Source of the DNA: Candidatus Staskawiczbacteria bacterium
GTDB lineage: Bacteria > Patescibacteriota > Minisyncoccia > Minisyncoccales > Staskawiczbacteraceae
Direction of reading: 5' to 3'
Assembly: GCA_023245145.1 (NCBI GenBank)
Contig: JAHFKW010000005.1
Location: 1-34,920, forward strand
DNA length: 34,920 nucleotides
Below the pieces are notes generated by a model. It was not told the DNA's origin, ran no database searches, and saw only the letters and a program-made list of their open reading frames with translations. Both the position numbers and the translations under genes were made by a program. Below are positions 1,996 through 8,547 of the stretch, piece after piece (position 1 is the first letter of the stretch; the number at the start of each line of letters is the position of its first letter).

Positions 1996-2945
1996 AAAAT
2001 CTAAAAGACTTTGATGTAGCCGGCAAGCGCATCTTGGTCAGGTGCGATTTTAATGTGCCTTGCGATGCATCAGGCGCTATATTAGACGACACTAAAATTT
2101 CTGAAGCACTGCCGACGCTTCAATACCTGCTGACCCAAAAAGCCAAAATAATTATTATTACCCATTTGGGTGATGGCAGTCAGTCACTTGATAGTGTGAA
2201 AGCTAGATTATTTGAATTACTCGGTCAGTCAGTTGATGTTTTGGAAAACATCAGAAGTCACCAAGAAGAAATAGAAAATAATCTTGAGTTTGCAAAAAAG
2301 TTGGCGAACATGGGAGACATTTACATTAACGAAGCTTTTGATGTGTGTCATCGGGCGCATGCTTCGGTGGTGGGCATTCCTCAATTTTTGCCACATGGAG
2401 CGGGTTTTGCGCTCCAAAAAGAGGTTGAGGTTTTGTCGGGCATTATGCAAAAACCGGCGCGTCCCATGGTGGCCATTATTGGCGGAGCAAAGGCAAAAAC
2501 CAAGGCTTTATTTGTCCAGCCTTTTTGTGCCTTTGCAGATGTGGTTATTATTAACGGACTGATTAAGCAAGAATTAATTGATAAAAAAATTCCGCTAGAA
2601 TATCCGGAAAAAGTCTTTGGTCCCAAAGAAAATTTGGGAGGGCTGGATTTAACACCCGAAGACATTAATCGGATTGTAGAAAAAATTAAGCCAGCTAAAA
2701 CCATTTTTTGGAACGGCCCATTTGGTAAGTTTGAGGATGAAGAATATAAAAAAGGCACATTAGCCATTGCCAAAGCTATCATTGAAAGTGGCGCATTTTC
2801 GGTGGTGGGCGGGGGAGAGACCATTGAGTTTTTGAAAAAAGAGGGTATGCTGGACAAATTCAGCCATGTCAGCACAGCGGGCGGAGCACTCATGGAATTT
2901 TTAAGCGGGCAAGAATTACCGGGGTTGGTTGCTCTTGACAGTTAA
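1992..2945 (+). CDS. pgk: Phosphoglycerate kinase-like protein, shortened (317 aa)
   Basis: RILVRCDFNVP, CHRAHASVVG, AIIGGAKAKTK, TIFWNGPFGKFE, VVGGGETIEF, SHVSTAGGALMEFLSGQELPGL; overlaps the previous stop. Confidence 0.85.
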   Translation: MKNLKDFDVAGKRILVRCDFNVPCDASGAILDDTKISEALPTLQYLLTQKAKIIIITHLGDGSQSLDSVKARLFELLGQSVDVLENIRSHQEEIENNLEFAKKLANMGDIYINEAFDVCHRAHASVVGIPQFLPHGAGFALQKEVEVLSGIMQKPARPMVAIIGGAKAKTKALFVQPFCAFADVVIINGLIKQELIDKKIPLEYPEKVFGPKENLGGLDLTPEDINRIVEKIKPAKTIFWNGPFGKFEDEEYKKGTLAIAKAIIESGAFSVVGGGETIEFLKKEGMLDKFSHVSTAGGALMEFLSGQELPGLVALDS

Positions 2946-2963
2946 GCTTGATGGGTGTATGAT
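2935..2963 (+). promoter_or_regulatory. Sigma70-type promoter upstream of the DGR target gene
   Basis: TTGACA (2935-2940), 17-bp spacer, TATGAT (2958-2963); AGGAG RBS upstream of ATG 3028. Confidence 0.7.
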
Positions 2964-3027
2964 TAAGGTATGGGTACGGCACATTGCTGTTACGCCTAGA
3001 TATTCACTTTTTTAGGAGATACTGGCG

Positions 3028-3807
3028 ATGAGTATGAAAGTCGTCGGAGACATGTCGGAATGGTCTGGCATGTTGAGCGAAGTGTTTCGCCAAGCTGGCA
3101 ATGGGGAGTTTACTCCCCAGCAATTGCAGGCCTTTTTGGAGCATCGTAACGATATTTTTGTAGTTGATGCGCCAAAAAAGATTGAAGTCGTGGAGAAGAA
3201 ACTCATTCTCCCTGACCTCGACAACGCCAAAATCTTTTCGGAGCTGGGCCTTAAGGCACAGTATAAAAAAATCATGGCCGGCATGAAGTCGCCACCAGAC
3301 AACACGGAATTTTGGTACCTCTTGGTGCCACCGGAAGATATGGAGATTCCATGCGACGTCGTGACAGCGAAATTCAGGGAATTGGGAGTCACAACTTCGT
3401 TGCGATACGACAACCTGGATTTCAACCTCAAGCCCGAGTACGAAGTTCGTGAAGCCAAGGGCGCGCATTGGTTGGCTTTCAAAAAGTCGCTGACGGGAGA
3501 GGCGACCAGCCAGTCCGCCAACCAACGCTGGGAAGATGTTCGGTCTCGCTACCGTGACCCCCGTTTGTGCGACGGCTTGCGGCTGATGTTTGGGGCTTAC
3601 CTTGCCTCCGGTAAGGAAAAGCTCCTACTTAACATCGAAAAGTGGACCCGTACACGCTCGCGCTTTCGCGATGGCGACGTCGCCAGTTTCAATGCTTATC
3701 ATGGCAAGGTTCGCGTCAGCTACGGCTATCCGGTCTATGCCTACCCGGATGCTCGTGTTCGTCCCGCAGATTTCCTGCCTTTGGAACCGAGCGGAGCGAA
3801 GGTGTAA
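3028..3807 (+). CDS. DGR target (variable) protein; C-terminal region predicted to be a C-type-lectin-like variable domain
   Basis: AGGAG RBS before ATG. C-terminal region RSRFRDGDVASFNAYHGKVRVSYGYPVYAYPDARVRP lies in VR and matches a nearby TR except at TR adenines. Confidence 0.85.
   Translation: MSMKVVGDMSEWSGMLSEVFRQAGNGEFTPQQLQAFLEHRNDIFVVDAPKKIEVVEKKLILPDLDNAKIFSELGLKAQYKKIMAGMKSPPDNTEFWYLLVPPEDMEIPCDVVTAKFRELGVTTSLRYDNLDFNLKPEYEVREAKGAHWLAFKKSLTGEATSQSANQRWEDVRSRYRDPRLCDGLRLMFGAYLASGKEKLLLNIEKWTRTRSRFRDGDVASFNAYHGKVRVSYGYPVYAYPDARVRPADFLPLEPSGAKV
3654..3766 (+). repeat. DGR variable repeat (VR)
   Basis: 113 bp ungapped match to 4041-4153 with 11 mismatches, every one at a TR adenine: VR 3676G, 3686G, 3697T, 3713G, 3719G, 3721T, 3725G, 3727T, 3734T, 3742T, 3748G. 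Confidence 0.95.
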
Positions 3808-3822
3808 AAGGCATTTTGTCAG

Positions 3823-3853
3823 GCCCCGATGCATATTGCAGAGGGGCATTTTT
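3823..3853 (+). terminator. Hairpin plus T-tract downstream of VR (terminator and/or DGR target-site hairpin)
   Basis: GCCCC-GA-TGCA-TAT-TGCA-GA-GGGGC followed by ATTTTTT. Confidence 0.6.
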
Positions 3854-3863
3854 TATGTATAAT
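3836..3863 (+). promoter_or_regulatory. Possible promoter for the TR RNA
   Basis: TTGCAG - 16 bp - TATAAT (3858-3863) between the target gene and TR. Confidence 0.35.
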
Positions 3864-4040
3864 ATTTGTGTGGCTAGCAATTTTCTAATAAGCAAAAAGT
3901 TACTTGTCACAAGGAAACTGCTTGCATGGCCATCACGAATATCGAAGATTCGGAAAACTTCTGTGCGACGGACACAGTTAACCCAGATAGCACAAGCTTA
4001 TTGTGACTTATCGGTGACACGGATGTGGTTATGCAAAAAG

Positions 4041-4153
4041 ACGCTCGCGCTTTCGCGATGGCAACGTCGCCAATTTCAATGCTAATCATGGCAAGGTTCA
4101 CGTCAACAACGACAATCCGGACTATGCCAACCCGAATGCTCGTGTTCGTCCCG
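4041..4153 (+). other. DGR template repeat (TR), presumably part of a noncoding DGR RNA
   Basis: Non-coding copy of VR; read in VR frame it has nine AAY codons (RSRFRDGNVANFNANHGKVHVNNDNPDYANPNARVRP). Located just upstream of the RT. Confidence 0.95.
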
Positions 4154-4164
4154 AAGTCTCCTTT

Positions 4165-4200
4165 GTACTACAGGTAGTAAAGCTTTACTACTTGTAGTAC
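4165..4200. repeat. 36-nt inverted repeat between TR and RT
   Basis: GTACTACAGGTAGTAAAG|CTTTACTACTTGTAGTAC; 18-nt arms with one mismatch that would be a G-U pair in RNA. Confidence 0.9.
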
Positions 4201-4317
4201 AGAAAAAAGTTAATAAAAATACTATGCCAAATTTTAAACAGTCTGGGGGGGGGGCTTACAGGTTGGGAAAATGTAAAAAATGCTTGGGAGAATTTTGAAC
4301 GTGGTAAAACTAAAAAA

Positions 4318-5235
4318 TTGGATGTTATTGAGTTTAAAAATAACTTAAAACAAAATCTTAATTTAATTCAAAAAGAGTTACAGAATAAAACGTATCAACA
4401 TTCTGCCTACACTACGTTTTACGTTAAAGATCCTAAATTACGGAAAATAAATAAAGCTTGTGTACGTGACAGAGTGGTGCATCATATATTATTTAGAAAA
4501 TTGTATTGGTATTTTGACCGGACTTTTATCTTTGATTCGTATTCCTGCCGAATTGAAAAGGGGACGCATAAAGCTGTGCGTCGTTTACATGAACTTTTCA
4601 ACAAAGAAAGTCAAAATAATACTAAAACCTGCTGGGTATTAAAATGTGACATCAAAAAGTTCTTTGATAATGTTGACCAAGAAACTTTACTTTCACTGAT
4701 TGCAAGAAGGGTAAAAGATGGGGATGCGATGTGGCTCATAGAGTTAATTATTAAAAGTTTTCCAGCCGGCTTGCCTTTGGGCAACATTACCAGCCAGCTT
4801 TTTTCCAATATTTATTTACACGAGCTTGATTTGTTTATTAAACACACATTAAAAGTTAAATACTATATCAGATACTGCGATGATTTTGTAATTTTAAATA
4901 CTGACCGAGACTATTTAGAAGGCCTGATTCCCAAAATAGATGTATTCTTAAAAAACAACTTAAAATTATCACTGCACCCTAATAAAATTCATATTAGGAA
5001 ATATCATCAAGGCATAGACTTTCTGGGGTATGTCAGTTTTCCCAATCACAGTATTTTGCGTGTAAAAACCAAAGAGAGGATGTTTGTGAAGGTAAAGAGC
5101 AGGCTAGCACAATATGAAAGTGGTGCCATTAAAAAAGAATCGTTTGAGGCAACGATGAATTCATATTTGGGAATGCTGAAACATTGTAATGCACACAATG
5201 TCAGACAGGAATTAATGGACATACTAATTTACTAA
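4318..5235 (+). CDS. Diversity-generating retroelement reverse transcriptase (likely original start ATG 4224, out of frame here because of a G10 tract)
   Basis: RT motifs FDSYSCRIEKGTHKA, CDIKKFFDNVD, LPLGNITSQLFSNIYLHELD (DGR-type instead of QGxxxSP), YYIRYCDDFVIL, HPNKIHIRKYHQGIDFLGY. Confidence 0.93.
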   Translation: MDVIEFKNNLKQNLNLIQKELQNKTYQHSAYTTFYVKDPKLRKINKACVRDRVVHHILFRKLYWYFDRTFIFDSYSCRIEKGTHKAVRRLHELFNKESQNNTKTCWVLKCDIKKFFDNVDQETLLSLIARRVKDGDAMWLIELIIKSFPAGLPLGNITSQLFSNIYLHELDLFIKHTLKVKYYIRYCDDFVILNTDRDYLEGLIPKIDVFLKNNLKLSLHPNKIHIRKYHQGIDFLGYVSFPNHSILRVKTKERMFVKVKSRLAQYESGAIKKESFEATMNSYLGMLKHCNAHNVRQELMDILIY

Positions 5236-6444: not shown

Positions 6445-7078
6445 ATTTTTAAAATCTCCGGCGTTTTGGATTTTTACGGTGTTGGTTTTGGTGGTGGGCG
6501 GATACGCTTACATTTTTGAAGAGTTACCCAAAGAAGAAGTTAAAACCAAACAAACCACCCAGTTGGCTGCCCTGCTTACGCCCTTGCCCGAGCCCATCGT
6601 TTTAGATGAGCGGACTAAAGAGGCCGATTGTCAAATCCAGGGGTCTTTGCCTGATCATGAATGCAGTCCGGGAGCCGTTTTTAAAGATGCCACTCAAGAA
6701 ATTATTTGCGTATCAGGTTACACCAAAACTGTCAGAAATGTTTCGGTGAGTTTAAAGAAAAAAGTTTTTGCCGAATATGGCATTGCTTATCCCGTGCCAT
6801 TTGGCAGTTATGAAGTAGACCATATTGTTCCCTTGGCTTTGGGTGGGAATAATGATATTGCTAATTTGTTTCCGGAAGCTCGTCAGCCTTATCCGGGGTT
6901 TCAGGAAAAAGACGTGGTGGAAAACTATTTGCACGAACATGTCTGTAGCGGAGAAATTGATTTAGCCGCCGCACAGGTGCAAATAGCTAATGATTGGTTG
7001 GGTGTGTATAATAATTTAAGCGAGGAAACCATCAAAGCGTATAAGGCAAAGTATAAAAGTTGGGCACCAGAATCGTAA
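6434..7078 (+). CDS. Membrane-anchored or secreted HNH-type nuclease domain protein
   Basis: N-terminal TM FWIFTVLVLVVGGYAYIF; VDHIVPLALGGNNDIANLFPE HNH-like motif. Confidence 0.7.
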   Translation: MQFKFLKSPAFWIFTVLVLVVGGYAYIFEELPKEEVKTKQTTQLAALLTPLPEPIVLDERTKEADCQIQGSLPDHECSPGAVFKDATQEIICVSGYTKTVRNVSVSLKKKVFAEYGIAYPVPFGSYEVDHIVPLALGGNNDIANLFPEARQPYPGFQEKDVVENYLHEHVCSGEIDLAAAQVQIANDWLGVYNNLSEETIKAYKAKYKSWAPES

Positions 7079-7100
7079 AGCATGAAACATGAATCATGAA

Positions 7101-7184
7101 ACATGGATCATAAAACATGAAACATAAAAAATGAAACATAAAACATGGATCATAAAACATGAAACATAAAAAATGAAACATAAA
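7101..7184. repeat. Perfect 2 x 42-bp tandem repeat within a CATGAAACAT-rich tract
   Basis: acatggatcataaaacatgaaacataaaaaatgaaacataaa at 7101-7142 and 7143-7184; related sequence from about 7080 to 7215. Confidence 0.9.
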
Positions 7185-7229
7185 ACATAAAAATTGAAAC
7201 GTGAAGCATAAAAAGCATAAAGCAAAGAT

Positions 7230-7574
7230 ATGGAACAATTCCACGAAAAGTTAAGGACCAAAATGGATTTTTTAGTTCATGAAGTTTATAGCGCAGCCAA
7301 ATGTTTTCCAAAAGAAGAATTATATGGAGTAACCTCGCAATTAAGGCGAGCTTCATTGTCGATAATTTTGAATTATATCGAAGGTTATGCGCGAGGGAGA
7401 GAAAAGGTTCATAAAAACTTCTTAGAAATTTCTTATGGTTCCCTAAAGGAAACTCAGTATCTGATAGACTTTTCTTTCAAAGAGGGCTATATTGTTGAAG
7501 AAAGTTATAAAAAATTAATAAAAATAGCAGACGAAATTGGAGCAATGCTTTGGGGTACAATCCAGAAAGTTTAG
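7230..7574 (+). CDS. Four helix bundle protein (S23/IVP family, same broad fold as DGR Avd)
   Basis: LVHEVYSAAKCFPKEELYGVTSQLRRASLSIILNYIEGYARG...FLEISYGSLKETQYLIDFS...EIGAMLWGTI pattern. Confidence 0.85.
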   Translation: MEQFHEKLRTKMDFLVHEVYSAAKCFPKEELYGVTSQLRRASLSIILNYIEGYARGREKVHKNFLEISYGSLKETQYLIDFSFKEGYIVEESYKKLIKIADEIGAMLWGTIQKV

Positions 7575-8059: not shown

Positions 8060-8111
8060 GTTAGACAAGCAAGGCTATAAGCCGAATTCTGTTCTTCTAC
8101 TATTATGCCTG

Positions 8112-8139
8112 CACTGAGCGAGCATAGCGAGTCGAAGTG
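8112..8139. repeat. CACTGAGCGAGCATAGCGAGTCGAAGTG palindromic repeat inside rnpB
   Basis: CACT...AGTG hairpin of the TTCGAC/GCTCAG repeat family. Confidence 0.6.
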
Positions 8140-8261
8140 TGATTATCTATCTGCGCCAGGCATTACTGCATGGCTGTGCCAGGCACAATACTGCGCCTGA
8201 CTTTGGCGAACTACTTTTCTCCTGCGACAGCAAAATTCATAAACGAACTTTTTCAGGCTTT

Positions 8262-8282
8262 ACCCTGAGCTTGTCGAAGGGT
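8262..8282. repeat. ACCCTGAGCTTGTCGAAGGGT palindromic repeat inside rnpB
   Basis: ACCCT/AGGGT arms; same TTCGAC...GCTCAGGG family as 29758-29777. Confidence 0.7.
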
Positions 8283-8547
8283 TTGTTCTTGCACTCCAGT
8301 AAGCATTTAGCACGTTTCAGCCGGACTAAACCGGGTCGTTTCTGTTCGCAGCTCGGTCGTTACCGACGACGGGTATTACCCGCTACCGTTTCCACCTTGC
8401 GGTGGATAGTGTTCGGACTTTCCTCCCCACCCTTCCTAAATAATATAGGGATGGCGGGGCAATCACTCACCTTGCTTGTCCATCTCTAATATAGCAGTAC
8501 TTTCACCCTTTGTCAAATTTGAAAAATACTCTAGAAAAGATTAAGAT

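Follow-up and report, generated by a model that had tools for sequence, protein, structure and literature searches.

Diversity-generating retroelements (DGRs) of Patescibacteria (candidate phyla radiation, CPR) probably undergo slipped-strand phase variation through a simple-sequence repeat at the 5′ ends of their mutator genes, reverse transcriptase (RT) and avd; we regard this as the best explanation of the data presented here. The DGR at issue lies in contig JAHFKW010000005.1 of a Candidatus Staskawiczbacteria bacterium. The window is the whole 34,920-nt stretch that was analyzed, and the host genome is 626 kb. The repeat would gate DGR activity. Slipped-strand mispairing would alter the number of repeat units, a start codon would be joined to or cut off from its gene, and the lineage would switch back and forth between DGR-ON and DGR-OFF. 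The cassette in the window has no avd, and a run of ten G residues (G10) inside the RT gene would be the gate. The DGR anatomy, the conservation of the tract and the statistics of its reading frames were read directly from the assemblies. From these we infer that the tracts slip in living cells, that slippage affects the protein and that it has a consequence for mutagenesis.

The window DGR and the start of its RT

The template repeat (TR) and variable repeat (VR) align without gaps over 116 bp and have 12 mismatches, 12/12 of which are adenines in TR. The original prediction had described adenine-only differences in a 113-bp core (VR 3654-3766, TR 4041-4153), and recomputation gave the same result. 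Each of the 11/11 core mismatches is an A in TR, six are A to G and five are A to T. The hypergeometric probability of this pattern is 2.2e-8, given that 27/113 TR bases are A. All 11/11 core changes occur at codon position 1 or 2 and each alters the residue. The twelfth mismatch, beyond the core, is A to C at a TR adenine. VR ends ~38 bp before the end of the target gene, and no further TR copy or extra VR was found in the 626-kb genome. Adenine mutagenesis from TR to VR is standard DGR biology. Because the differences are A-only, they point to copying from TR to VR in this element, in which the RT would misread adenines when copying TR RNA, with the cDNA then taking the place of VR at the target gene's 3′ end.

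The RT is of the DGR type, as predicted. It matches Pfam RVT_1 (2.2e-20) and the PHROG reverse transcriptase family phrog_1423 (5.6e-109). The best match among solved structures is PDB 8ub7 (1.6e-40, 142 bits), titled 'Reverse transcriptase', which we take to be the Bordetella phage DGR RT complex; the others, which include group II intron RTs, score ≤64 bits. The proposed phylogenetic check was run on a tree of 197 RTs. The window RT groups with Patescibacteria/CPR DGR RTs, an LtrA/retron-like outgroup forms a separate clade and the nearest named relatives are Ca. Staskawiczbacteria. These results place the element among the genuine cellular DGRs of the Patescibacteria clade.

The element had also been called a complete DGR. 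TR, VR, RT and target are present; completeness is doubtful because the assembled RT open reading frame (ORF) has no in-frame ATG across the G10 tract, its start had been misplaced and avd is missing from the cassette, where none was found upstream of the RT. The closest four-helix gene, at 7230-7574, which encodes an S23 protein, was considered as the window Avd and rejected with 97.7 bits for 23S-IVP versus 32.8 bits for bAvd (cut-off 40). Not every DGR carries avd, so its absence from the cassette does not disqualify the element as a DGR. A majority of DGRs do carry avd (PMC10053308).

The RT had been predicted to start at TTG 4318 (ORF 4318-5235). This start was ruled out by conserved N-terminal residues upstream in the same frame, which is open and encodes GGGLTGWENVKNAWENFERGKTKK, a motif in a region conserved in relatives. 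No ATG, GTG or TTG occurs in the RT frame upstream of 4318 before the stop. The only upstream ATG, at 4224, is one base out of the RT frame across the G10 run (4245-4254), and it is this tract that leaves the RT ORF without an in-frame ATG. Runs of nine or more G occur twice in the whole genome, at 4245-4254 of the window and at G000:C8:43078-43086 before the RT of a second DGR. Judged from its sequence, the window RT is OFF in the assembled genome. The A-only VR differences suggest that the same RT was ON recently. An OFF RT next to a recently mutagenized VR would be as expected of a reversible switch.

The second DGR in this genome (L027, G000:C8:42107-43086) has an RT 48-51% identical to the window RT, its own TR/VR pair with 10/10 A differences and a G tract (G9). 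Unlike the window, it has a divergent avd in the ON phase across G9, and its RT starts from its own ATG independently of the tract. The L027 Avd might serve the avd-less window RT in trans.

Repeat tracts and reading frames at related loci

Tract conservation was analyzed in 180 RT loci from metagenome-assembled genomes (MAGs) or draft genomes, with one genome per species. Set 1 consists of the window and its relatives, 93 distinct RT loci in all. Set 2 is independent and contains 87 loci; it was drawn from 380 genomes sampled across the phylum, and such an RT is present in 109 of these genomes. A tract was defined as a simple-sequence repeat ≤200 bp 5′ of the RT core, and G tracts were counted from G8. 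Tracts are present at 121/180 loci and are mostly G8-12, with GA, GT, CT, ATTG and CCTGT units also found. In set 1, 66/93 loci have a tract, and 61 of these are G8-12, within the ~18 kb searched; the ~800 kb of flanking DNA from the same loci contains five G/C runs of that length (Fisher odds ~540). Set 2 has tracts at 55/87 loci, with G, GA, CT, GT, ATTG, TGTCC and CTGTC as units. The repeat unit changed at least 13 times on the RT tree. Different units at one site indicate that repeat instability, and not one sequence, is conserved. The presence of a tract has phylogenetic signal (18 changes versus 45.7 when shuffled). Other runs of nine or more G in the family occur in varied contexts with no gene in common. 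No tract was found in 25 RT relatives from viral contigs (IMG/VR), which also contained no strain pairs.

The gene antisense to the tract diverges from RT and encodes ~115-130 aa. It was identified as Avd by Pfam bAvd, above the cut-off in 5/5 tested, and by NCBIfam DivGenRetAVD, above the cut-off in 2/5 and below it, at E ≤ 2e-16, in 3/5. An antisense avd is located upstream of RT at 163/180 loci. Three coding layouts occur. In layout (a), the tract is within avd only and RT has its own ATG downstream of the tract. In layout (b), avd and RT overlap head-to-head and the tract is within both. In layout (c), seen for example in the window, L012, L029, L032 and L034, avd is missing and the tract is within RT only. 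The usual layout in the phylum is a divergent avd placed head-to-head with RT, with the repeat in the start of avd, RT or both. Genome G013 (0.7 Mb) has six DGR RT matches with tracts of G9 to G11 in differing phases, possibly a set of independently switched diversifiers.

Reading frames were scored with start codons called by ATG only, ON denoting an in-frame ATG. Some loci had seemed tract-less yet out of frame; these had an N gap in place of the tract (L264, L131) or a G7 run below the threshold (L293, L295) and were kept out of the Fisher frame statistics. At tract-less loci, avd has an in-frame ATG in 50/50 cases. At tract loci, avd is ON in 23, OFF in 77, tract-independent in seven and unresolved in two (Fisher 2e-20). 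One repeat unit restores an in-frame ATG at 77/79 loci that lack one for avd; an artificial frame shift of tract-less loci reaches an ATG in 7/24. The RT start is tract-dependent and ON at 14 loci, tract-dependent and OFF at 41, and tract-independent at 59. All three phases occur, and OFF loci that need one unit fewer are about as numerous as those that need one more. The RT ORF is intact in 74/76 OFF loci, and A-only TR/VR pairs are present in OFF loci such as the window, L033, L037 and L041. The OFF genes are not pseudogenes, because one unit rescues them, their RT ORFs are intact and A-only TR/VR pairs accompany them.

The phase itself has no phylogenetic signal (22 changes versus 20.7 when shuffled). 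Where both genes are tract-dependent, the ON phase is shared in 23/24 loci of set 1 and 14/19 of set 2. L036 (G9, ON) and L037 (G10, OFF) have RTs that are 83% identical and equal distances from ATG to tract, and are one G apart; tract length here differs between species of one family. In the tract-less loci L084 and L096 (G6 only), both genes are in frame from the corresponding ATGs. In G019 (3′ end of L011 and 5′ end of L045), VR joins the post-TR sequence directly and the RT contains stop codons. Recombination between VR and TR may have removed TR here, with decay of the RT, or the assembly may have collapsed at the repeat.

BPP-1 retrohoming does not occur without Avd (PMC10053308), and avd nonsense mutations are the inactive control in the reconstituted BPP-1 system (PMC12875486). 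Loss of RT or Avd should therefore silence mutagenesis. A stochastic switch common to Patescibacteria is a probable extension of these findings. One repeat in the overlapping antisense RT and avd starts would toggle both genes, and bursts of diversification would alternate with long keeping of a good variant.

Several points weigh against phase variation. All loci come from MAG or draft assemblies in which single tract lengths may carry errors, and lengths were compared between species only. Some OFF genes could still be in frame from a GTG or TTG start, which ATG-only calling passes over. Where the two genes overlap antisense, an ATG may arise as the by-product of a His codon on the opposite strand, and the avd-less loci that are free of this effect number only ~7. 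OFF alleles could still yield a little RT through ribosomal or RNA-polymerase slippage. Set 2 shows weaker phase sharing than set 1. The ON fraction of 23% is near the chance value of 1/3, which leaves selection for a phase unsupported.

The slippage point can be extended into an alternative in which programmed frameshifting or transcriptional slippage gives a constant low dose of RT and Avd at any tract length, so that the tract is an attenuator and not a heritable switch. Homopolymer runs can be slippery, a low mutator dose is plausible and OFF is frequent (77/100). A programmed site would fix one length class, however, and all three classes are seen with OFF split about evenly. GA, GT, ATTG and CCTGT repeats are found at the same place, and the tract-less loci are in frame in all 50 cases. 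Taken together, these observations make programmed slippage unlikely.

It is also quite improbable that the window is a plain DGR whose tract phase reflects an assembly error or a decaying RT, with translation from an internal or non-ATG start such as TTG 4318. The window comes from one assembly, a homopolymer can be given the wrong length, TTG can serve as a start codon and decayed relatives are found (the L045 region with stops). Against these stand the same arrangement in 121 loci from many assemblies, the conserved N-terminal region upstream of 4318, the restriction of frame loss to tract-bearing loci and the recent activity recorded in the window VR. That the G tract is instead a nucleic-acid element of the DGR, belonging to the template RNA or binding the RT, with an incidental coding context, has very little probability. 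In its favor, a poly-G tract is always on the RT-sense strand and is kept across many species while the coding context around it changes. Against it, GA, CT, GT and tetra- or pentanucleotide repeats take its place, about 1/3 of related loci have no tract, some of them with TR/VR pairs (L031, L039, L040), and the tract keeps to the gene start, at no constant distance from TR. The idea of poly-G as a fixed RNA element was dropped once GA, GT and CCTGT repeats were found at the same site.

Relation to known DGRs and contingency loci

The DGR of Bordetella phage BPP-1 (mtd-avd-TR-brt) resembles the window in its RT family (29% identity by tblastn), adenine-specific TR-to-VR changes, a VR at the 3′ end of the target gene and a hairpin downstream of that gene. 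In BPP-1, TR precedes brt on the same strand. The phage has avd, TR and brt in a single same-strand operon (PMC12875486), whereas the window cassette has no avd, and in its relatives avd is divergent between TR and RT with the repeat tract in the shared 5′ ends. The window also differs from BPP-1 in that its target is a cellular protein and a covarying hairpin pair is located 5′ of TR. The window RT and its relatives are like Patescibacteria/CPR DGR clade 2 of Roux et al. 2021 (PMC8144416), which is cellular and CPR-restricted with targets that have no recognizable domains, a likeness by description and not by direct comparison of data. The main text of PMC8144416 makes no mention of homopolymers or simple-sequence repeats. 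It reports slower turnover in clades 2 and 5 and leaves RT control open as the cause.

Contingency loci with poly-G tracts (Campylobacter, Neisseria, Bifidobacterium pili) likewise carry G8-12 or short-unit repeats within the gene, close to its start codon, and the genes are otherwise intact in all three phases. They switch surface structures, whereas the DGR loci would switch the mutator (RT/Avd), and at many DGR loci a single tract serves two overlapping antisense genes; slippage of the DGR tracts is predicted from sequence. DGRs in CPR and G-tract contingency loci are each already known. Searches of the open-access literature brought up no report of a DGR with phase variation, homopolymers or slippage. 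How DGRs are regulated in the wild has been called an exciting frontier (PMC12875486). Control of DGRs in nature is an acknowledged open question, and a repeat-length switch would be testable from existing metagenomes at one tract. If true, the design would be unusual in its layering, with a targeted mutator placed under a random switch, across a hardly cultivated phylum. It would also be a warning for annotation, as gene callers will mis-start or drop such RTs and Avds.

Template RNA leader, target protein and other features

The features of the DGR region are listed in the table.

Table. Features of the window DGR, with window coordinates
Feature	Coordinates	Strand	Basis
Putative sigma-70-like promoter TTGACA-17-TATGAT, 5′ of target gene	2935..2963	+	consensus scan 11/12
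DGR target gene, 259 aa, C-terminal VR	3028..3807	+	ORF
Variable repeat (VR)	3654..3769	+	12 differences from TR, all TR adenines
G+C-rich hairpin then T-rich tail, directly 3′ of target gene	3823..3847	+	-16.6 kcal/mol, z -3.7
Two-hairpin RNA element	3902..3992	+	covariance model, compensatory changes
Template repeat (TR)	4041..4156	+	A-only pair with VR
19-bp hairpin between TR and RT	4162..4203	+	-25.5 kcal/mol, z -6.4
RT gene, presumed full extent; ATG 4224 joins RT frame one repeat unit away	4224..5235	+	corresponding ATG and N-terminal peptide in L012, L029, L032, L034
G10 simple-sequence tract, presumed phase-variation switch	4245..4254	+	sequence
DGR reverse transcriptase, continuously open frame, 324 codons	4261..5235	+	RVT_1, phrog_1423, 8ub7, tree

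The two-hairpin element is located between the target gene and TR, 49 nt 5′ of TR. Stem 1 has 5 bp (CGAAT/ATTCG), and stem 2 has 5 bp (CTGTG/CACAG) with the loop CGACGGA. A covariance model (R1) was built from seven loci and used to search 96 sources, which gave 21 matches in 20 CPR DGR loci. At the eight loci checked, the element is on the same strand as TR and 46-322 nt 5′ of it, the 322-nt distance belonging to a locus with an insertion. Both stems covary, with 54 compensatory cells versus 15.7 in shuffled alignments, the alignment having been fitted to this structure. A cleaner test on the original seven loci gave 13 compensatory cells versus 4.6. The cells of the element are paired at 96% versus 35-51% when the structure is slid. 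No match to the element or the TR leader was found in Rfam 15 at E ≤ 1. The single-sequence fold of the window leader element is not better than shuffles, and the case for the element rests on covariation for that reason. The element is presumed to be the 5′ part of the template RNA. The insertion, in L012 (G013:C12, within 3296-3955, minus strand), is a MITE-like (miniature inverted-repeat transposable element) sequence of ~300 nt in the TR leader. It is bounded by a ~28-bp inverted repeat, GTGCGAAACGGAATTGGCATTGTTTTAG, and separates the leader element from TR.

Searches of Pfam, PHROGs, NCBIfam and PDB with the target sequence gave no match. The original prediction had regarded its family as new with this locus; a profile search found relatives in 28/335 genomes of the class, and the family is not confined to this locus. 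To check the proposed C-type-lectin fold, the target was modeled with AlphaFold2 (AF2), which gave a mean pLDDT (predicted local distance difference test) of 74 and a pTM (predicted template modeling score) of 0.69. No Foldseek match was obtained at E ≤ 0.001. The fold is weakly suggested by weak matches to EgtB, rhodocetin, the DEC205 CTLD (C-type lectin domain) and DUF1566, several of which are C-type-lectin/FGE-like folds. By analogy to the targets of other DGRs, the function of the target is most likely variable ligand binding. A target homologue at L013 (G008:C11, 4053-4673) has a 9-kb neighborhood with no G8 run or TR/VR pair, and may be a target that is remote or not diversified.

Promoter-like sites in the region are not more numerous than in shuffles, and the promoter in the table is a prediction. 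The hairpin 3′ of the target gene may be terminator-like or the counterpart of the stem-loop that follows the initiation of mutagenic homology (IMH) site. The hairpin between TR and RT (window 4164-4201) recurs at G000:C1:14233-14271 and partly in G011 and G020, as a dispersed palindromic element. A class A RNase P RNA is located at window 8062-8478 on the minus strand, above the gathering score. Window 7072-7200, which adjoins the S23-type four-helix protein gene, contains overlapping near-repeats with A-biased differences and a ~42-bp period, and looks like a short tandem repeat and not a DGR.

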